This document shows, piece by piece, positions 9,220-20,724 of a stretch of DNA of 64,000 nt. The notes beneath the pieces are model-generated. The model was given only the letters and a program-made list of their open reading frames with translations, searched no databases and was not told where the DNA came from. Position numbers and translations under genes: made by a program. Where the stretch lies: contig JAFXAU010000029.1 in NCBI GenBank assembly GCA_017516865.1, positions 1 to 64,000 on the forward strand. Reading direction: 5' to 3'. The DNA is from Bacteroidales bacterium. Its GTDB lineage: Bacteria; Bacteroidota; Bacteroidia; Bacteroidales; UBA1715. Numbering within the stretch: the stretch's first letter is position 1; every line of letters begins with the position of its first letter.

Positions 9220-10050
9220 TTAATTAATTACGATTTTTTGTTTTTCGGTATTGTTCACAATAAGCACATACGTACCTGATTTCAAGCATTGCACGTTGAT
9301 AATTGCCGTTTGGCCTACAACTTGTCGTAACATTAGTTTGCCTTGTATGTTGAAGATTTTTATTTCATTTTCTACTTGAGGCAAGGTTAGATATAATTTG
9401 TTTTTTACAGGATTGGCGGTAAACTGGCACTTTACGTCAGACATCTTAATAATCGAGGTTGAATAATACACTATGGATGATTTCTGTAATATTTTTCCTG
9501 AATTTTCGTCTATAATTACATCAACGGCTGTTTCGAGATTATTTTTGTCAATTATTGAAACTTTATAGGCGTAATACAGATTTTCGTCATCAGGGTTTAA
9601 AGTATTGTGAGCAATCACTTTTTCTGTTTTATACTCCATGTCATAATATGTATCTATTCCAAAGACGTCTTTTTCGGCAATTTGTACAAGTTCTAATTTA
9701 GTTAACGGTGTATTTTTTTCAATTTCTCCAATCGAAGAATAATAAGTACCATCGATTAGATAAATATTATTCTTTTTAACATGAACCAAGAGATCTGCGT
9801 CCATTATTCTGTAATCATCCATATATTGGTGCATCCTTAGATGAGTGGAGCCATCGTCTTGAGAGATTTCTTCCTTGAAAACATCAAATGTAATCTGAGA
9901 ATCAATAGAAAGAATTTGTTTTAAAGTTTCGTCAATCGTGCTTTCATCATATTGTATTTCCTCCTCCACGTGAAGAAAGATTTGTCGTATTTCTTGCGAG
10001 TAACATAGTTCGCAGAAACACATGCTTAGAATTAAAAATACTTTTTTCAT
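9220..10050 (-). CDS. Secreted protease-propeptide-only protein with T9SS sorting tail
   Basis: This is a 276-residue protein: signal peptide (MKKVFLILSMCFCELCYSQ), then an FTP/PepSY-type propeptide (about 20-190, ending VDVIIDENSGKILQK), then a T9SS type A sorting tail (about 205-276, with IKIFNIQGKLMLRQ and SGTYVLIVNNTEKQKIVIN). Signal and propeptide are plainly paralogous to those of the M4 protease at 10451-12316 (both have CELCYSQE, a conserved EE-Y-T-D-TLKQI pattern and VDVIIDE-SG-IL). The roughly 300-residue catalytic domain is entirely absent: no HExxH and no sign of decay. Family knowledge says M4 propeptides fold and inhibit their enzymes. A role as a trans-acting inhibitor or chaperone of the neighbour is an inference. 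Confidence 0.85.
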   Translation of the reverse strand: MKKVFLILSMCFCELCYSQEIRQIFLHVEEEIQYDESTIDETLKQILSIDSQITFDVFKEEISQDDGSTHLRMHQYMDDYRIMDADLLVHVKKNNIYLIDGTYYSSIGEIEKNTPLTKLELVQIAEKDVFGIDTYYDMEYKTEKVIAHNTLNPDDENLYYAYKVSIIDKNNLETAVDVIIDENSGKILQKSSIVYYSTSIIKMSDVKCQFTANPVKNKLYLTLPQVENEIKIFNIQGKLMLRQVVGQTAIINVQCLKSGTYVLIVNNTEKQKIVIN

Positions 10051-10083: not shown

Positions 10084-10116
10084 GTTTATATAGTCTGTTG
10101 ATATATGAATGACTGC
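10084..10116 (-). promoter_or_regulatory. Candidate sigma-fusion promoter, copy 1
   Basis: On the minus strand GCAGTCATT (10116-10108) is followed after exactly 12 bases by GACTAT, then ATAAAC. The site lies 33 bp upstream of the ATG at 10050. It matches copy 2 (10322-10354) at 26 of 33 positions, with the differences confined to the central 9 bases. The two-block, fixed-spacing layout is that of a sigma-dependent promoter. Confidence 0.55.
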
Positions 10117-10120
10117 GTAT

Positions 10121-10303
10121 TTACCTGAGATTTTTTTTATTATTTTTTTGTTTTATTCTAAAAGACAGCTTCTTATTTGTATCGGGAATATCTTCTATTT
10201 TATGTAAATCCTTTATTTTTATTGGTTTTCGGCCGAATGTCAGCTGTATCATTGCCCCTATGGTCAAACAACAAATAAGAAAAATACCCAATACTTTTTT
10301 CAT
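10121..10303 (-). CDS. Small secreted or membrane peptide, unknown function
   Basis: This is a 60-residue ORF beginning MKKVLGIFLICCLTIGAMIQ, a clear signal peptide or membrane anchor, followed by a strongly basic tail (RIKQKNNKKNLR). It sits between the propeptide-only gene and the M4 protease gene on the same strand. It has its own copy of the shared upstream motif 18 bp before the start, which is the best evidence that it is a real gene. The stop is 4 bp from the motif of the next gene. No family recognised. Confidence 0.6.
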   Translation of the reverse strand: MKKVLGIFLICCLTIGAMIQLTFGRKPIKIKDLHKIEDIPDTNKKLSFRIKQKNNKKNLR

Positions 10304-10321
10304 AAATTTTATTATTGATTC

Positions 10322-10354
10322 GTTTATATAGTCTGTGATATTGTCAATGACTGC
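10322..10354 (-). promoter_or_regulatory. Candidate sigma-fusion promoter, copy 2
   Basis: On the minus strand GCAGTCATT (10354-10346), 12 bases, then GACTATATAAAC, 18 bp upstream of the ATG at 10303. Block sequence and spacing are identical to copy 1. Confidence 0.55.
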
Positions 10355-10450
10355 AAACTACCAGATAAATTTTATTTCCAGAGTAATGAGAAAGTGAAGG
10401 GATTTAAAAAAAATTGTTGCTTGACAGTTGTTTTTGTCCAACAAAATCCC

Positions 10451-12316
10451 TTAATACAGAATAATCTTACAAGAATGTTCGTGTTTGTTTACAATTACAA
10501 CATACACACCATTCAAAAGGCTTGCCATATCTATTGTGGCTGATTCTTTGATTTTTTGTTGCATAACTTTTTGACCGCCAGTGTTGTAAATTGCCACAAC
10601 ATTATTTTTGGTCGGAAGCGATATGTGGAGAGTGTTCCCTTCGAGCGCAAACCATTTATCGGTCTGTGTGGTATCTGCCACAATCGGGAATTCATCTGTT
10701 TTTTTATTAATCTGTATGTAGGGAGGATTGTTCTCAACGCCAACGGCATACCACGCATCGGCAACAGAATTGTTATATGATTGATTATTTGGAAACAAAT
10801 CTGCTGCGGCTTTGAGCGTGCACGCCCTCATATCGGCAAAATTGCTTGTGGCTGAAAGATATTCTGTTTCCGCACGATATACAATTTTTGCAGCGTTGGA
10901 AATCCCGATTCCCTTCACGCGGTAGGATTTGTTTAGGTCGTTAATCCCGGAACCGCCTTCGCACAGCAGATAGAACCAATAATTTAAAACACCGCTGTTG
11001 GTATGGACACCACAATAGTCGTTGTTCTTACTTGGAGTGCACCCTTCGGTTTCGTACCAATATAAACCGCCATACGTGTCAGACTGTCCCTCTGAGTTAG
11101 GGTTGCTCATGCTACGCAATGCCGTATGGTCGGTACGAATATCAACGTCTTCACCGCAAAGCCATGTCTGTTTGTTGTTCGTGTAATAATCTTCCACACA
11201 CGTTCCCCAAATATCGCTCAAACCCTCGTTAATCGCTCCCGATTCCCCTTCGTATTTCAAATTGGCGGAATAGGTACACACCGCATGTCCAAGTTCGTGG
11301 GCAACAATATCCAAACTCGTCATAATATCCTGATTCTCATGGCCGTCGCCAAAACAGAACAGTTGTAACGTACTTTCCCAAAACGAATTTTCATAATTTG
11401 TTCCATAATGTACACAACAATTTATAGGAGCTCCCTTGTCATCGTAACTATTCCGTTGAAATGTCGTATAAAAATAGTCATAAGTTTTCATTGCTGCCCA
11501 ATGCACGTCCAATGCTCCGTCGTTTTTGTCTGAATTGTGGTATTCCGCAGTTGTCCAGTTATTGTCGGCATCGGAAAAATCCGTCAGTTTTGCCGTATTA
11601 TTTGAATGATTGAGATTTCTTGTGAAAATTCCGTTTCCTCGTGTCACATCTCTCAATACATATCTTGAATCATTATATGTTGTTCCAATAGTTTGTGTTC
11701 CGCTATATCGTGTGTTTGCAGTTCCTTTGGCGTAAATTACCCGTGAGATTTTATCAAGAATTAGCCCCGATTGTTCGTCAATTATAACATCAACAGATGT
11801 TTCAAGGTTTTTCCCGTCGGAAACAGATACATTGCTGGCAAAATAGAGATTTTTATCTTCGCTGTTGAAACTATTTGGGGCAATCACTTTTTCAATAGTA
11901 TAGTGAAAATTATAATCTGGCACCGATTCAAATACCTCAGTTTCTGCAATTTGTACAATTTCAGATTCACTTAACAATGAAACGTTTTCTAAATTGTCTA
12001 TCGAAGAATAATATGAGCCGTTGATGGTTGTGATTATGCCATTTTCAATATGAACCAATAAATCCGAGTTCAAAATTCTATAATCTCCATAATATTGATG
12101 GAGTCTCAGAAGTATTGAATTTTCCTGTACTTCATTCATTTTATACGTGGTGAATGTAGTGCGGGCGTCCGTTGGAATGATTTGTTTCAAGGTGTGGTCA
12201 AGTGTTGTTGAATCATAGGCAATCCTTTCTTCTAATTTGTGGAATATACGCTGTGGCTCCTGCGAATAGCACAATTCGCATACGCAAAGGCAGATTATGA
12301 AGGATAGTTTTTTCAT
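10451..12316 (-). CDS. M4 (thermolysin-like) metallopeptidase, T9SS-exported
   Basis: This is a secreted zinc endopeptidase of 621 residues from the ATG at 12316. That start is preferred over an upstream one because it gives a proper signal peptide (MKKLSFIICLCVCELCYSQ). An FTP/PepSY propeptide (about 20-195) precedes the catalytic domain. The zinc motif AHELGH has H340, E341 and H344, the third ligand is E364 in INEGLSD, and the catalytic His is about H438 in GVHTNSGVLNYW. The last 70 residues are a T9SS type A tail (VVAIYNTGGQKVMQQ, NGVYVVIVN). The gene begins 28 bp after the ATPase stop, so it may be read from the upstream gene. Its propeptide is the parent or sibling of the 9220-10050 protein. 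Confidence 0.93.
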   Translation of the reverse strand: MKKLSFIICLCVCELCYSQEPQRIFHKLEERIAYDSTTLDHTLKQIIPTDARTTFTTYKMNEVQENSILLRLHQYYGDYRILNSDLLVHIENGIITTINGSYYSSIDNLENVSLLSESEIVQIAETEVFESVPDYNFHYTIEKVIAPNSFNSEDKNLYFASNVSVSDGKNLETSVDVIIDEQSGLILDKISRVIYAKGTANTRYSGTQTIGTTYNDSRYVLRDVTRGNGIFTRNLNHSNNTAKLTDFSDADNNWTTAEYHNSDKNDGALDVHWAAMKTYDYFYTTFQRNSYDDKGAPINCCVHYGTNYENSFWESTLQLFCFGDGHENQDIMTSLDIVAHELGHAVCTYSANLKYEGESGAINEGLSDIWGTCVEDYYTNNKQTWLCGEDVDIRTDHTALRSMSNPNSEGQSDTYGGLYWYETEGCTPSKNNDYCGVHTNSGVLNYWFYLLCEGGSGINDLNKSYRVKGIGISNAAKIVYRAETEYLSATSNFADMRACTLKAAADLFPNNQSYNNSVADAWYAVGVENNPPYIQINKKTDEFPIVADTTQTDKWFALEGNTLHISLPTKNNVVAIYNTGGQKVMQQKIKESATIDMASLLNGVYVVIVNKHEHSCKIILY

Positions 12317-12344
12317 GCTATGTAAATTACGAGGAAACAAAAGA

Positions 12345-13625
12345 TTATACTGCATAGAGTGGAATGTTGGCAAGTTGTTGTTGCTCTATGTATTGCAACA
12401 TTGAATATCGGATAGCATGTAAATCAGGATTGTTTTTCAGTAGGGTTGTTAAAGAATTGGATTTAACGACACCGCCTGCTTTCACTTCTATTGGCACCAA
12501 CTTGGCATCGCGTTGAATTAGAAAATCTATTTCAAGTCGCGAGTCGTCGGTTTTGTGATAATAGATTGGCGATATATGCTGGGATTTCATTTGCTGTAAA
12601 ACAAATTGCTCGGTCAATCCACCGCTATATTCCTGAAAAATATCGTTTTTAATGAGCACTTGGGCTGGGTCGGTGTTCACCATTGCTCCCATAAGTCCCA
12701 AGTCGAGCATATAGAGTTTGAAAGAGGTCAAGTCTTCGTATATTTCGAGCGGAAGTGCTGGTTTTGTGCATCGTGGCACTTTGTAAAGCAAGCCTGAATC
12801 GGTCAGCCACTGAATCGCAATTTCAAATTCGTTGGCACGGGCACCTTTCTTTAACGCACCATAGATGAATTTTTTATTTTCTTTGAATAGTTGTGAGGGA
12901 ATGCTTTTCCACACCATTCTTATGCGTGGCACTTGGTCTTTGGGCGCGTGTTTTGAAAAATCCCGTTCATAGCCCAGTAAAATTTCCTTTTGTATTCGCC
13001 TAACTTCTTTCAATTCTTCGGTTTCCACGTATTTCTTCACAACTTCGGGCATTCCACCTACGTAATAATATTGTCGTAACAAATCAATGTATTTGTCGTG
13101 AAGCGGATTCAACACTGCGAAATCACGGTTTTGAAGCAGATTATAACATTCTTTTTCTCCTTTCGCCAGCAGAAATTCGCCAAAATTCATAGGAAAAACG
13201 TCTATCACATTTACTTTTCCAACTGGAAACGACACATTTTCGTGCAACGAAATTCCCAATAACGAACCTGCCACCGCTATATGGTATTCTGGAGCCGATT
13301 CGTAGAAATATTTTAATGCTTCAATTGCTTCGGGAATATCCTGAACTTCGTCTAAAATTATGAGAGTATCGTGTGGCGTAATATCAACGGAAGTCAAGGC
13401 TCGCAGTCCACGCAAAATCCTATCTACATCAAAATCTTGCGAAAATATTTGGCGTGCCAATTCGTTCTTGCGGCAAACAATGTATGCTTCTTGTTTGTAT
13501 TCACGTTTGGCAAACTCACGCAACAACCATGTCTTTCCAACCTGTCTCGCACCGTTCAAAATAAGCGGTTTTCTGTCTTTGCTGTTTTTCCATTTTATAA
13601 GTTGTTGTAATACAAGTCGTTCCAT
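12345..13625 (-). CDS. AAA_14 ATPase with DUF4143 domain
   Basis: Start chosen at MERLVLQQL (426 residues). An N-terminal AAA_14-type ATPase has Walker A GARQVGKT (about residues 26-33) and Walker B TLIILDEVQDIP. A C-terminal DUF4143 region has the nuclease-like signature LEIDFLIQRDAKLVPIEVKAGG, where the D-E-K arrangement resembles restriction-endonuclease-fold proteins. The family is abundant in Bacteroidota and archaea, varies between strains, and has no settled function. The upstream gap is filled with four phased 18-bp repeats (13635-13750), and the M4 protease follows 28 bp downstream. Confidence 0.92.
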   Translation of the reverse strand: MERLVLQQLIKWKNSKDRKPLILNGARQVGKTWLLREFAKREYKQEAYIVCRKNELARQIFSQDFDVDRILRGLRALTSVDITPHDTLIILDEVQDIPEAIEALKYFYESAPEYHIAVAGSLLGISLHENVSFPVGKVNVIDVFPMNFGEFLLAKGEKECYNLLQNRDFAVLNPLHDKYIDLLRQYYYVGGMPEVVKKYVETEELKEVRRIQKEILLGYERDFSKHAPKDQVPRIRMVWKSIPSQLFKENKKFIYGALKKGARANEFEIAIQWLTDSGLLYKVPRCTKPALPLEIYEDLTSFKLYMLDLGLMGAMVNTDPAQVLIKNDIFQEYSGGLTEQFVLQQMKSQHISPIYYHKTDDSRLEIDFLIQRDAKLVPIEVKAGGVVKSNSLTTLLKNNPDLHAIRYSMLQYIEQQQLANIPLYAV

Positions 13626-13760: not shown

Positions 13761-15332
13761 TTACCAAATAAATTTGATTCCCACTGGCAACGAGAACGTG
13801 AATGGATGTTCTGTGCAATAGGTTTCCAAGTTGCTGCGTGTCGGGAGATAATATAGCATGCTCGGCTCTGTAAAAATGCCGATGTGCGGAGTAATATTAT
13901 ATTGCAGGCCAACTCCCGTGCTGAGCGACCACAGCCATGGAACATTAGTGTCTGTCATTTCGCGAGGGTATTCGTTTGTATTGAATTGCGAATGGATTGG
14001 GATTCCCATCGTCACGCCAAGATTTCCGTAGAGATTCCAACCTTTAACCGTGGCAAAATTATACATTCCCTTTATTGGAATGCCAAGATAGTGGATGGTC
14101 TGCAACTGTCCTCGAGTTACGGTTTTGTTTGTGTCTTTTTCAAAATCGGAAACAAGACGCATATAACTTATACCGGTTTCAATGCCAAACCGCTTGCTCT
14201 GTTTGTAATGGGCAAGCACTGTCAACGTGAGAGGCATATAGTGATGAGTTGTGTAGAGAACCGTGTCGGTTGTTACAATAGAGCCTCCTTCAGGTGGCTT
14301 GATACCTGGTCCGTCCACATCAATGTCAACTTCTTTTATTATTGACTTGGACGCATTTTGTTCGTCGAAACTTCCGGTGTACGCGACTCCTATTGACCAC
14401 TTTTGTGATTTATTGTTGCTGATTACGGACTTGTCGGGGAATATGTCGGCAAGATTGTAATGCGGATTTTCTGTTTTCGGCATGAACTGGATTGTATCAC
14501 GGGATTGGGAATCGTGCGCAGTGTCGGCTACGATTGTTTTGTAGGCAATCATATCGTTCACCGTGTCGGAAATGACAGGCTCGTTTGTCTGGATGGTTGC
14601 AGACTGAGTTTTTGTTGCAGGAACAATGTTCCGCTTCGTAGGTTGATGAACAATTACGGGGTCTTGTGCTTGTTCTTTCTGCATCTCAGTTGTTTTCTCC
14701 TCAGATGTTGTCACAATTGTTGATTCTTCGTTGGAAACTGGATTTTCTTTTCGGAGAAGAAAGAACGTAATAGGAATGAGAAGCAACAGCAGTGCAGGCC
14801 ATGACTTTTGAATCATAGAACGGAGCTGTTTCTTTGCACGTGCCAATTGCGACGAAGACGAATGCGGCTTAATATTGAGCAGGGCTGCAATTTCTTTGTG
14901 CGACATACCTTCCAATACCGACAACTTGAATATTTTACCATAACCTTCTGGCAATTTTTCAATCAGACTTGTGATTTCGCTCATGGAAAGTTCTTTATAG
15001 TCAGGAGCGTCGGTATCATCATTCCAAAAATCCTTTTTGCCGATGTTCTCAAATGAGACGGTCTGGTGTTTCATTTGATAGTCCTTGTATTTCGATGCCA
15101 CGTTCCGTGCAATCGACATCATCCATGCTTCGGCTTTGCTGTCGTCGCGTAATTTGTCGAGCGAGGTGAAGATAATTACAAATGAATCGTGTATGGCATC
15201 GTTGATAGACTGGCTGTCGGATAGATACCGCCGGCACACGCTCTGCATTTGCTTTGCGTATGTCTGATACAATTCCCCGAGAGCGGCATTGTCGCCTTGC
15301 CTGCACCTACTTATCAGTTGTGTTATCTCCAT
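13761..15332 (-). CDS. ECF sigma factor fused to a transmembrane helix and outer-membrane beta-barrel
   Basis: This is one uninterrupted frame of 523 residues from ATG 15332; a TTG at 15341 is less likely. Counting from the TTG, which adds three residues: sigma-70 region 2 at about 20-90 (LGELYQTYAK, HDSFVIIFTSL, AWMMSIARNVASKY); region 4 helix-turn-helix at about 120-178 (LPEGYGKIFKLSVLEGMSHK, IAALLNIKPHSSSSQLARAK). A single hydrophobic helix follows at 181-196 (WPALLLLLIPITFFLL), then a Thr/Glu/Pro-rich linker of about 115 residues. The C-terminal 200 residues have alternating aromatic beta-strands typical of small OM barrels (WSIGVAYTGSF, RFGIETGISYMRL, WNLYGNLGVTMG, GIFTEPSMLYYL), ending in IKFIW with the terminal aromatic BAM signal. 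Topology would be cytoplasmic sigma, inner-membrane helix, periplasmic linker, OM barrel. Confidence 0.85.
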   Translation of the reverse strand: MEITQLISRCRQGDNAALGELYQTYAKQMQSVCRRYLSDSQSINDAIHDSFVIIFTSLDKLRDDSKAEAWMMSIARNVASKYKDYQMKHQTVSFENIGKKDFWNDDTDAPDYKELSMSEITSLIEKLPEGYGKIFKLSVLEGMSHKEIAALLNIKPHSSSSQLARAKKQLRSMIQKSWPALLLLLIPITFFLLRKENPVSNEESTIVTTSEEKTTEMQKEQAQDPVIVHQPTKRNIVPATKTQSATIQTNEPVISDTVNDMIAYKTIVADTAHDSQSRDTIQFMPKTENPHYNLADIFPDKSVISNNKSQKWSIGVAYTGSFDEQNASKSIIKEVDIDVDGPGIKPPEGGSIVTTDTVLYTTHHYMPLTLTVLAHYKQSKRFGIETGISYMRLVSDFEKDTNKTVTRGQLQTIHYLGIPIKGMYNFATVKGWNLYGNLGVTMGIPIHSQFNTNEYPREMTDTNVPWLWSLSTGVGLQYNITPHIGIFTEPSMLYYLPTRSNLETYCTEHPFTFSLPVGIKFIW

Positions 15333-15353: not shown

Positions 15354-15380
15354 TATGTCCTATAAGGATAAAATGACTGC
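15354..15380 (-). promoter_or_regulatory. Candidate autoregulatory promoter of the sigma-fusion gene, copy 3
   Basis: On the minus strand GCAGTCATT (15380-15372), then 12 bases, then GACATA (15359-15354), 21 bp before the ATG at 15332. The 9-mer and the spacing to GAC are the same as in copies 1 and 2, while the 12 bases between are unrelated, which argues against simple duplication. Confidence 0.55.
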
Positions 15381-15551
15381 ACGAAATTTTGTTTTTTTTT
15401 CGATAATTTTTTTTTATCGTTTGCAAAATAATAAAAAACAACTGAAAAAATTTTTTCTGCCAATGGGAACAAATACGAAAAAGCAAGTCGGATGATAGTT
15501 TTACAGAAAAAATCCGTTACTTTGTATTTCGAAAATATAGAACCAGAAAAT

Positions 15552-16653: not shown

Positions 16654-19600
16654 TTATTCCACTACAATCTTCACCGCTTTGTTGCCTACAATCACAATGT
16701 AAATACCCTTTTCAACATTGAATGATTTCACCGCTTCGTTGTTCCCTTTGGCACGGACGATTGTCTGACCAATTGCGTTGCATATTACAATCTGATTTTC
16801 GCCAGCATTTTCAACTACGATTGCGTTGTGTGCCGCATACACGTTCACAGGTTTTTCTTCTACAAAAGAAATTGCTGTTTTGTTTTCAACTTCGGCAATG
16901 TTGCTGATTGCCAAATTGAACGGCCCACTTTCTGCTTTCACGAATGGATCGTTAATATCAATTGTTTCTGGCAATTCCACGCCAACGTAATATGAAATGG
17001 TTCCTTGTGCAGGTTGTAAATCGGTGTACGTCAACACACTTGAGTTGACTTTCTTGATTTCTTCCACGCCTTCGTTTGTCACACGGAAAATGGAGTATGT
17101 CAAGAAATCGAATCCTTCGTATGCCGTCCACGAAAGGTTGTTTTCGGTGCCGATACTTTTGTTTTTCTGTAAGTGTATCGTTTTGTGGCTTGGACTCAAT
17201 TCCGATTGCTTTCCGCAGTTGTCGGTTGCCGAAATTTTATATCGGTACGGATATTCAAGACTGTTGGCGGTCACGTCAACGTAGATGCTTGTTTCATTGT
17301 ATTGTACGTCGTCTAATTTTGCATATTCGCCTAATCTTTCCGTTTCTCGGTATATTGTGTAAAAGTCGATTGCCTCCGACGCTTCTTTTTGCCAGATAAT
17401 CAAGTTGTACGGCGACTGTTCCTGACTTACCGATACCAAAGCCAATTCTGGCTGATACTTGAACGATTCATATTCAATTTCTGTTTCGTCGGTTACCGTA
17501 CAGCCGTATGCGTCGGTGATTGTGAACGTGTATGTGCCTGCAGGCAGATTTTCGCGTTTCAAATCGGTGCTTTCGTCGTTCCACGAATATTCAACTGGCT
17601 CGTTGCCTTTTTCGTACGAAATTGTGATTTCACCCACATCGTGGCCGCAGATTGCATTTTTGAAATCTTTGGTAAGGACTGGCTTGTTGCTTTCGTCTTT
17701 GACCAATTCTACCTTGTCGGTATATGTACAACCGTATGAGTCGGTTACCTTTAATTTATACGTGCCTGCTGACAGTTCATTTTGGTCTTTTGTTGTAACA
17801 TCCGAGGGATATTGTATCAGGAGATTGATTTCGTCAATTTGGAACTGCATTTCGCTTTGGTAGTTATTCGCACCTCTGTAAGTCCAATAAAAATCGTTTG
17901 GTGCAAGTCCTTCGTCAAAATAGAAAGTTACTAATGTCCATTCTTCGTGTGCAGGTATTAGTTTTTCAAACATATTATCTCCAAATGCTCGAAAAACAAT
18001 TCCCTCTCCTTTATGGTAAAAGGAAATTCCCTCAACAAAGTTCGCCAAGCTACTAATTTCGGAACCTATGTGTGTATAGAATCCTGCATAGTCGTTCGTT
18101 AGGTTTTGGCTAATCGACGACGCTTTTATAATTATTGATAGCTCTGTGCCCAATGCACCGTCGTTTGCAATTCCAGATTCGTCGGTGTTCGTAGTTCCTC
18201 CGTATCCCTTATCATTGAAAATGATTATGTTGCTATAAAGTTCATTTGTCAGCCCTTTTTCAAAATCACTCATTTGCATGGGTGAAATATGGATCCACGA
18301 GAACGAATAAGGTTCGGTGCCGCTTGTGACGGTTGTTGTGATTTCTCCATTTTTGGTTTCGCAGATAGGATTTTTTATGTCGAATGAAAATTTAGGCAAT
18401 ACGCTATAATCTTTTTCAAGTGTGGCAGTTTTCGATGTTGCACAACCGTATGCGTCGGTAGCGGTTAGGGTATATTCACCTTCTGCCAAATTTTCTCGGT
18501 CTTTGTTGGTAGCACCGTCAGACCATTTGTATGTGTATGGTTCTGTTCCTTCGCTCACCGTTGCTGTAATTGTACCGTTTTCTGTTTCGCAAATAGGGTT
18601 TGTTGATGTCAATTCAACAGAAGGCACAACAGAAAAATCTTTGTTCAATGATGTTGTTGCGATTGTCTTACATCCATAACTGTCGGTTACGGAGAACCGA
18701 TATTGCCCAGCGGCTAAGTTTTGCACGTCTTTCTCCGATGAGAACGTTTCTGCATCGTCGTATGACAGAAGAGTTAATTCGTCAATCCAATAATCAGGGG
18801 TGCTATTTCCATACCATACAAAAAATTTTACGTATGGAATGTCGTATGTTTCAATATTCATATTTTCCCAAGTATAGCTCACAAGCGTCCAATCGCTATG
18901 ATATGGGATTGTGTATTCTGTACTCCAACCGGAGCCCTCGACTGATATTATGAACTCAACTGATGTACCTTTGTGATAGAACGAGAACCCATAAGAATAA
19001 GCAGCCTCGGGATTCAAGGATAGTTCATCTAATAGGTACAAATTAAGCTGGTACATAACATTGTCATTCGAATTACGTTGTACGTGAATAGCTTGCTCAG
19101 ACCCTGCCGCACCACTATTTTCAATGGAAAGTTCCGCACCGGAATAATCTTCAGGATTGTTTGGGTTGATTTCAAAAATCCCAGATAGGTTGTTGGGTGC
19201 TCCATTTTCAAAATTTACTAAAGGAATTTCTTTTTCATTTGCCTTGCCCCAATTATAGGCATATGGTTCAGTTCCTCCATTCACCGTTGCAGTGATTTCT
19301 CCGTTTTCTGTTTCGCAAATGGGATCGGTGGAATTCAACGAAATCTGCGGCATATTGTCTTCGTTAGGATAAAGGGTGACGTATGTCGTATCGGAAGTAT
19401 AACCTTCGGCATCTGTTGCAACAAAATAGTATTTGCCAGTGGTCATTTCGCTACGAGGATTGTCGGTGTTACCGTCGTTCCAGAGAACGGTGTACGGTGC
19501 AACGCCATTGGTTACGTCGAACGAAGCCGAACCTGTTGCCGAAGTACAGATAGGATTTGTTGTTTCTAAATTGAGAATTTTGGGCTTTTTGCCAAATGTA

Positions 19601-20724
19601 GCTATAAACGAAGTGTCTTTTGTTACTGTTATGGTACGTGGGTTTTCCTTATTGCCATCGTTCCAACTGCCAAATTGGTAATCGCTCTCGTTTGTTGACG
19701 TTGCCGTTAAAACCATTGTAAATTCATCGTCGCAGGCATTCTCCAACTCAATAGTGACAACTCCATATTCAGAGTTTGATGAACTTACGGAAAATTTATG
19801 CGATGAGGTTGCCAAGTTTGATTTGTATGGTATCCAATCCTCGTCGTTCATATAATTTTCAATCGCGTCACATGGCACGTAGATTTTGACATCCTCAGGG
19901 AAAGCATTTTCTCCTAAAGCAGGAGGAGTTTGTGATTCAATAAAGATAGTATGTAAATTTTCACAATTATTAAATGCGTCCACATCAATATCTATTACAG
20001 AAGCAGGAATAACAATTGACGTGAGACTTTTACAAGATTGAAACGATTCTTTCCCAATAGTGGTAAGGGTATTAGGGAAAGTTATGGAAGACAAGCTGTA
20101 ACAGCTTGAAAATGTACTTTCTCTGATTTTAGTAAGACCATCGGGAAGTTTTACTGATTTCAGATTATAACAGAGATAGAATACGGACGTACCCATTGTA
20201 GTGACGGAGTTTGGAATTTCTATAGATTCCAAATTTTCACAACCCCAAAACAGACCTTCACAGAGATTTGTAAGGGAGTTTGAAAGCGTTATGGATTGTA
20301 GATTTTTACACTCTGCAAACGCATAGTTAAGTTCCTCAAGGGAATTAGGAAGTACAACGTTTTTTAATTTAGTACATGATTGAAATGCCTGGTCTCCAAT
20401 AACCTTGACACCTTCTTGTATTGTTACAGATGTTAATTTCGTGCAATTGTAAAAAGGTCGATCGTATCTTTTCCCGACTCCTATCACAGTGTACGTTTCC
20501 CCATCGTATTCCACTGTTCCAGGAATAATCAAATCTCCAACTGGTGGATTTTCATACGGCTCATTTGTGTTTTTTTCATAAGTTACATTAACTGTTTTAT
20601 CTTCTTGAGAAATAATGTCGTAATACAATATGTGCTCACTTGGACTTACTGCCGAAAAATCGTAGGCGAATGTCTGTATTGCCGTGAAGATGGCTATCAA
20701 TAAGGGAAAGATGTATTTTTTCAT
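16654..20724 (-). CDS. Large T9SS surface protein: BspA-type LRRs, SprB repeats, nested beta-sandwich domains
   Basis: This is a 1356-residue adhesin-like protein. Order from the N-terminus: signal peptide (MKKYIFPLLIAIFTAIQTFA); LRR_5/BspA repeats (CTKLTSVTIQEGVKVIGDQA and others) to about residue 290; an InlB-B-like segment (NDGNKENPRTITVTKDTSF); several SprB repeats (EPYTYKWSDGATNKDRENLA, then EGEYTLTATDAYGC); Fn3-like segments; and a T9SS tail ending GIYIVIVGNKAVKIVVE. Two SprB repeats are split by inserted domains of about 150 residues with the pattern SFYHKG...W-LV-Y.W...IDE--LL (nt about 19245-18750 and 18300-17800). SprB is the gliding adhesin of Flavobacterium; here an adhesive or glycan-binding role is inferred. 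It is a tandem paralog of the next gene. Confidence 0.88.
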   Translation of the reverse strand: MKKYIFPLLIAIFTAIQTFAYDFSAVSPSEHILYYDIISQEDKTVNVTYEKNTNEPYENPPVGDLIIPGTVEYDGETYTVIGVGKRYDRPFYNCTKLTSVTIQEGVKVIGDQAFQSCTKLKNVVLPNSLEELNYAFAECKNLQSITLSNSLTNLCEGLFWGCENLESIEIPNSVTTMGTSVFYLCYNLKSVKLPDGLTKIRESTFSSCYSLSSITFPNTLTTIGKESFQSCKSLTSIVIPASVIDIDVDAFNNCENLHTIFIESQTPPALGENAFPEDVKIYVPCDAIENYMNDEDWIPYKSNLATSSHKFSVSSSNSEYGVVTIELENACDDEFTMVLTATSTNESDYQFGSWNDGNKENPRTITVTKDTSFIATFGKKPKILNLETTNPICTSATGSASFDVTNGVAPYTVLWNDGNTDNPRSEMTTGKYYFVATDAEGYTSDTTYVTLYPNEDNMPQISLNSTDPICETENGEITATVNGGTEPYAYNWGKANEKEIPLVNFENGAPNNLSGIFEINPNNPEDYSGAELSIENSGAAGSEQAIHVQRNSNDNVMYQLNLYLLDELSLNPEAAYSYGFSFYHKGTSVEFIISVEGSGWSTEYTIPYHSDWTLVSYTWENMNIETYDIPYVKFFVWYGNSTPDYWIDELTLLSYDDAETFSSEKDVQNLAAGQYRFSVTDSYGCKTIATTSLNKDFSVVPSVELTSTNPICETENGTITATVSEGTEPYTYKWSDGATNKDRENLAEGEYTLTATDAYGCATSKTATLEKDYSVLPKFSFDIKNPICETKNGEITTTVTSGTEPYSFSWIHISPMQMSDFEKGLTNELYSNIIIFNDKGYGGTTNTDESGIANDGALGTELSIIIKASSISQNLTNDYAGFYTHIGSEISSLANFVEGISFYHKGEGIVFRAFGDNMFEKLIPAHEEWTLVTFYFDEGLAPNDFYWTYRGANNYQSEMQFQIDEINLLIQYPSDVTTKDQNELSAGTYKLKVTDSYGCTYTDKVELVKDESNKPVLTKDFKNAICGHDVGEITISYEKGNEPVEYSWNDESTDLKRENLPAGTYTFTITDAYGCTVTDETEIEYESFKYQPELALVSVSQEQSPYNLIIWQKEASEAIDFYTIYRETERLGEYAKLDDVQYNETSIYVDVTANSLEYPYRYKISATDNCGKQSELSPSHKTIHLQKNKSIGTENNLSWTAYEGFDFLTYSIFRVTNEGVEEIKKVNSSVLTYTDLQPAQGTISYYVGVELPETIDINDPFVKAESGPFNLAISNIAEVENKTAISFVEEKPVNVYAAHNAIVVENAGENQIVICNAIGQTIVRAKGNNEAVKSFNVEKGIYIVIVGNKAVKIVVE

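Follow-up and report, generated by a model that had tools for sequence, protein, structure and literature searches.

A Dma3-type fusion of an ECF sigma factor to an outer-membrane barrel in Bacteroidales, with a predicted promoter element of its own

The window analysed here is the whole stretch of 64,000 nucleotides at positions 1 to 64,000 of contig JAFXAU010000029.1, from a Bacteroidales bacterium. On its reverse strand, a single open frame at 13761-15332 begins with an ATG at 15332, ends with a stop codon at 13761-13763 and encodes 523 residues. The gene and the parts of its product are as follows:

13761..15332 (-): fusion gene for an ECF sigma factor, a membrane helix, a disordered linker and an outer-membrane barrel, 523 aa (ORF, Pfam, AlphaFold2)
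15087..15272 (-): sigma region 2, residues 21-82 (Pfam PF04542 Sigma70_r2, E = 5e-10; helices with pLDDT >90)
14823..14978 (-): sigma region 4, residues 119-170 (Pfam PF08281 Sigma70_r4_2, E = 2e-14; recognition helix HSSSSQLARAK)
14754..14816 (-): inner-membrane helix, approximately residues 173-193 (hydropathy of homologues; lies in model helix 156-193, continuous with the recognition helix)
14412..14753 (-): periplasmic low-complexity linker, residues 194-307 (pLDDT <50; poorly conserved and under weaker constraint)
13764..14411 (-): eight-stranded outer-membrane barrel with a C-terminal tryptophan, residues 308-523 (Pfam OMP_b-brl_2, model, OmpA/OmpX matches)

Regions 2 and 4 were the only sigma regions identified in the fusion protein, with no Pfam match to region 3, which is the composition of an ECF sigma factor, and the NCBI superfamily model sigma70-ECF spans residues 17-173. 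The best solved relative of the sigma part is E. coli SigmaE. The OMP_b-brl_2 match covers residues 374-479 with an E-value of 5e-6, barely above the Pfam cut-off. An AlphaFold2 model was built on 68 homologues (mean pLDDT 74), an earlier model from 17 sequences having been poor (pLDDT 59.5). The sigma helices and the barrel were mostly modelled with a pLDDT of around 90 or higher, the 114 residues between them were disordered, and residues 156-193 formed one unbroken helix that comprises both the region-4 recognition helix and the membrane helix. Foldseek searches matched the N-terminal half to E. coli SigmaE/RseA (1or7) and AlgU, and the C-terminal half to eight-stranded barrels of the OmpA, OmpX and Ail type. 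With strands judged by eye, the short turns on the linker side appear to fit an eight-stranded barrel with a periplasmic N-terminus. The terminal residue is tryptophan in more than 90% of the 68 homologues, in keeping with the terminal aromatic that a first-pass annotation of this DNA had pointed out. That annotation had also proposed a single polypeptide joining sigma regions 2 and 4, a membrane helix, a linker and a barrel, and the reading frame, Pfam, AlphaFold2 and Foldseek all agree with it; profile searches and structure prediction recovered both the sigma domains and the C-terminal barrel. The architecture of helix, linker and barrel likewise bears out the idea that the sigma factor is tethered through the entire envelope.

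This sigma-barrel architecture is already known from Dma3 of Bacteroides thetaiotaomicron (bt_2778-2779), where the sigma factor is the N-terminal domain and no sigma gene is adjacent (Pardue et al. 2026, PMC13088901). The first-pass annotation had set the protein apart from the Dma proteins of B. thetaiotaomicron, with novelty implied, and this contrast falls with Dma3. Like Dma3, the fusion in the window carries an N-terminal sigma factor on a Dma-like barrel protein and has no sigma gene beside it, although it comes from another organism, differs in sequence and is likened to Dma3 by the published description. We class it, on the basis of that description, as a Dma3-type sigma-barrel fusion. 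Homologous fusions also occur in group g62, whose genomes are Bacteroides-like by inference. Loss of Dma1 or Dma2 in B. thetaiotaomicron raises expression of the dma3 locus, and dma1 or dma2 mutants showed the same vesicle phenotype after dma3 was deleted as before (PMC13088901). Iron depletion upregulates BT2778, which carries a sigma factor annotation, approximately 2-fold (PMC10434189), and toxins that attack the envelope induce EcfO-Reo, a split homologue (PMC9308784, PMC13114119).

In Dma1/Das1 and Dma2/Das2 of B. thetaiotaomicron, and in EcfO-Reo of B. fragilis and P. vulgatus, an ECF sigma factor is also controlled by a membrane helix, a disordered tether and a C-terminal barrel, all three of which are present in the fusion (hydropathy, model and Foldseek, respectively). 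However, the sigma factor of those systems is a separate protein and an anti-sigma domain opens the barrel protein, whereas the fusion lacks that domain. Split pairs of this kind occur elsewhere in the order, with a separate sigma gene that overlaps or abuts a Dma-like gene (at locus L055, the sigma gene at 1039-1602 and the Dma-like gene at 1599-2840 overlap by 4 nt). Their barrels are 21-29% identical to the fused barrel. Two Dma-like proteins from split pairs have approximately 50 cytoplasmic residues (e.g., DEPDRLWEDI...) ahead of the membrane helix, and none of the fusions examined has this anti-sigma segment after region 4. Wherever a region-4 signature could be recognised in a fusion, the hydrophobic core begins only 2-11 residues past the recognition helix, and the remaining sequences look alike; this spacing leaves no hidden anti-sigma segment in them. 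The sigma factor thus stands where the anti-sigma domain sits in Dma proteins, as the first-pass annotation had suggested. An N-terminal anti-sigma domain was looked for and is absent, which keeps the fusion outside the Dma anti-sigma factors, strictly defined. No separate sigma gene was found beside the fusion.

The genome to which the window belongs (G000, 2.66 Mb, 99.4% complete) encodes a second full-length fusion that is 59% identical to the first. All seven genomes of the genus contain the fusion, and none was found in the other genera of the family. Further afield, matches were detected in 103 of 399 genomes of group f59 and 28 of 149 of group f25 (E<=1e-45), most of them covering the whole profile in one frame and the weakest being partial, as well as in 2 of 15 genomes of group f111 and in 10 of the 120 genomes of group g62 (E<=1e-60). 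The survey of Bacteroidales that the first-pass annotation had called for thus shows a widespread fusion. Genomes assembled as one contig are among those with a full-length copy (G336, G532, G1014 and G1022 included). The analysis covered 78 full-length fusions drawn from several families of Bacteroidales, closed genomes included; some are near-identical, and 68 remain at 85% identity. Whole-gene dN/dS is approximately 0.1-0.3 in most divergent pairs and reaches approximately 0.4 in near-identical ones, with constraint generally stronger in the sigma regions and the barrel than in the linkers. Both the sigma half and the barrel half are under purifying selection.

A chimeric assembly or a decaying pseudogene could also place a sigma factor and a barrel in one sequence, and one genome of the genus (G006) does carry a broken copy, with a frame break between approximately residues 276 and 347 (L054:1953-3448, -). 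The frame in the window is unbroken at the junction, and a misassembly or frameshift there is excluded because of the 59% identical paralogue, the copies throughout the genus and the full-length copies in other families, several of them in single-contig assemblies. Together with the dN/dS values, this refutes the explanation for the fusion family as a whole and leaves it a negligible chance. A tree of the sigma domains is compatible with a single origin of the fusion, and we rejected multiple origins on this basis, although deep support is weak (51); the main fused group of 38 rows has an SH-aLRT support of 90. At L062:2104-3327 (-), an ECF sigma factor of 407 aa carries another kind of C-terminal extension; it seemingly consists of sigma factor, linker and membrane helix without a barrel, and it was set aside as a separate family and not a barrel fusion.

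Fusion genes are preceded by an element with the consensus TGCAGTC(T/A)TTT-N13-14-ACTATA. The motif TGCAGTCnTT lies within 250 nt upstream of 64 of the 78 fusion genes, with a median distance of 53 nt to the start codon, compared with a mean of 0.035 matches in shuffled upstream sequences and none upstream of 17 unfused sigma genes. Its -10 part, about 13-14 nt further on, is of the ACTATA type in 43 cases and of an ATC type in 21. The element recurs upstream of the adjoining gene or genes. Within the genus, TGCAGTCWTTN{13,14}ACNWW matches at 40 sites in the seven genomes, versus 4 for a reversed control. The ATC-type pattern occurs exactly twice in each of four Bacteroides-like genomes, upstream of the fusion and of the next gene, and over six such genomes it has 9 sites versus 0 in the control. 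Where the recognition helix differs, so does the promoter: four fusions with the helix TSRSQYTHAR or TSRSQFTHAR carry TGCAGCAAA...TTGTCA upstream of the fusion and of the gene just downstream, and two with an HLTSASQ helix have TGCAATA(A/T)TT upstream of the fusion. Each of these sets looks like one clade and so counts as about one event. A sigma factor that is functional and regulates itself would be expected to show such a joint change of helix and promoter. Because the element marks fusion genes, recurs at their neighbours and covaries with the recognition helix, we consider it very probable that the tethered protein functions as a sigma factor, regulates its own gene and serves a small regulon of envelope or surface genes, most of them nearby. 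These sequence comparisons make a strong case that the fused sigma factor would recognise an ECF-type promoter of its own.

In the window, the element and its predicted targets are located as follows:

15354..15381 (-): conserved ECF-type promoter element of the fusion gene, TGCAGTCATTTTATCCTTATAGGACATA (sequence conservation)
10328..10355 (-): second copy of the element, upstream of the 60-aa ORF at 10121-10303
10090..10117 (-): third copy, with one mismatch, CGCAGTCATT...ACAGACTATA, upstream of the gene at 9220-10050
10121..10303 (-): predicted target, a 60-aa ORF with a signal-like N-terminus; at locus L049, a 49-aa homologue immediately follows the fusion
9220..10050 (-): predicted target, a 276-aa protein with an FTP propeptide motif and a Por_Secre_tail sorting domain

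The element of the fusion gene itself is among the less canonical ones (GGACATA). A relaxed scan of the window gave four matches, including one unconnected with the locus, whereas shuffled sequences gave 0.95; this count is weak alone, and the case therefore rests on recurrence across genomes. Predicted targets next door to fusions include a radical SAM/SPASM protein with a GFO_IDH_MocA partner, small lipoproteins, CotH-like proteins, SAM methyltransferases, a GT2 glycosyltransferase with a PMT-like gene, an acyltransferase, and secreted proteins with T9SS tails or signal peptides. Some candidate sites are far from the fusion gene in its own genome (contigs C7, C11 and C18). The one on C18 (L188:1501-1614) is 113 nt upstream of a gene for the periplasmic chaperone OmpH/Skp; it was seen in one genome only and concerns the only classic envelope-stress gene among the predicted targets. 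By their sequences the predicted targets look like surface or envelope functions, mostly unproven.

Several further features were observed at these loci. Just before the element at 10355, TATCTGGTAG (10355-10366, -) resembles the 3' end of a fusion (...IW stop), which precedes the same element at L049, as if a copy of the fusion had been lost there. Near the fusion, 10451-12373 (-) encodes a secreted M4 (thermolysin-like) protease bearing a sorting tail for type IX secretion, and a homologue of this protease is also near the fusion at three sister loci (L050, L051 and L052). Beside the locus, 16654-20724 (-) encodes a large secreted-looking protein of 1356 aa with leucine-rich-like and SprB-like repeats and a C-terminal tail, as judged by eye. 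In the Prevotella-type group f59, the radical SAM promoter at L089:3867, L094:859 and L111:2657 overlaps a near-perfect inverted repeat (TTCGTTGCAGTTTC...GAAACTGCAACGAA) that is followed by a T-run, possibly an attenuator.

The architecture, its conservation, the single frame, the promoter and regulon, and the covariation of helix and promoter are well supported. We infer that anchorage inhibits the sigma factor, that proteolysis activates it and that outer-membrane stress is the signal. The barrel would sit in the outer membrane, with the linker crossing the periplasm, one helix crossing the inner membrane and the sigma domain in the cytoplasm. As the recognition helix of region 4 would run directly into the membrane, anchorage itself may keep the sigma factor off core polymerase or off the -35 element. 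On sensing a disturbance of the outer membrane, the barrel would cause the protein to be cut in the membrane helix or close to it, and the freed sigma factor would transcribe its own gene, in a positive feedback, along with a few surface or envelope genes, mostly next door, from TGCAGTC-type promoters. We favour this account of a Dma3-type, envelope-spanning ECF sigma factor, held off by its membrane anchorage and freed by cleavage to transcribe its own gene and a small local regulon, and consider it reasonably likely to be correct. The induction of EcfO-Reo by toxins and that of the dma3 locus on loss of Dma1 or Dma2 are in keeping with it; the vesicle phenotype unaltered by dma3 deletion, the mostly unproven target functions, the lack of a universal cleavage motif and the less canonical element of the fusion gene in the window count against it. 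The first-pass annotation had spoken of a one-protein route from the outer membrane to the promoter; promoter evidence now backs the latter half, and the release by proteolysis or regulated access that it had invoked remains a proposal. Sigma factors that are held at membranes and freed by proteolysis have precedents. E. coli SigmaE-RseA, in which proteolytic release is known, has the same ECF sigma fold, is held at the inner membrane and is linked to the state of the outer membrane, but its anti-sigma factor is a separate protein without an outer-membrane part. Pro-SigmaE and pro-SigmaK of Bacillus are themselves membrane-attached and freed by proteolysis, but their tether is N-terminal, with no outer membrane or barrel involved, and they are not ECF sigma factors.

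The sigma factor might instead act while tethered, recruiting core polymerase at the inner membrane with the barrel and linker gating access and no cleavage taking place, much as the activators ToxR and CadC work membrane-bound. A mid-helix proline that is common in the clade of the window protein is not kept in all families, so no universal cleavage motif is visible in the membrane helix. The tight juxtamembrane spacing, as if geometry mattered, and a tiny, mostly local regulon within reach of a membrane-bound factor would also suit tethered action. However, the continuous recognition and membrane helix leaves hardly any room for region 4 on -35 DNA, a sigma factor also has to join core polymerase, and the sites on C7, C11 and C18 are distant from the gene; we regard tethered action as unlikely, though worth keeping in view. 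Control by an unlinked anti-sigma factor or chaperone has the argument on its side that every well-studied Dma/Reo pair uses an anti-sigma protein (PMC13088901, PMC9308784). In 26 loci, however, there was no conserved anti-sigma neighbour, only predicted targets or locally shared genes, and the fusion's own barrel already fills the place of a sensor, making such control improbable. The fusion could also be an expression unit only, in which a free sigma factor and a separate signal-anchored barrel arise through an internal start or constitutive processing. A methionine lies near the junction in most homologues, from which the membrane helix could act as a signal anchor, but 6 of the 78 fusions have no methionine between the recognition helix and the helix core, and an internal start for a separate barrel was rejected on this ground. 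Furthermore, an internal start would not produce free sigma factor, and a constitutively free, autoregulated sigma factor without an anti-sigma factor would be locked on. We judge an expression unit very improbable.

Dma3-type proteins have been named in the literature yet are almost unstudied. The promoter, the regulon, the helix covariation, the breadth of distribution, the missing anti-sigma segment and the helix-into-membrane geometry add to the published description (PMC13088901). The promoter element offers a testable readout of when a one-protein outer-membrane sensor fires, and it predicts targets across many members of the Bacteroidales. With the anti-sigma domain missing, the mechanistic question is what holds the fused sigma factor off. 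One answer, which we put forward tentatively and at slightly less than an even chance, is a sigma factor without any anti-sigma factor, inhibited by the fusion of its recognition helix to the membrane helix, with the state of the barrel in the outer membrane deciding on proteolytic release, after which its own gene and one neighbour would be transcribed. If true, this would be a complete outer-membrane-to-promoter circuit in one protein and one target.
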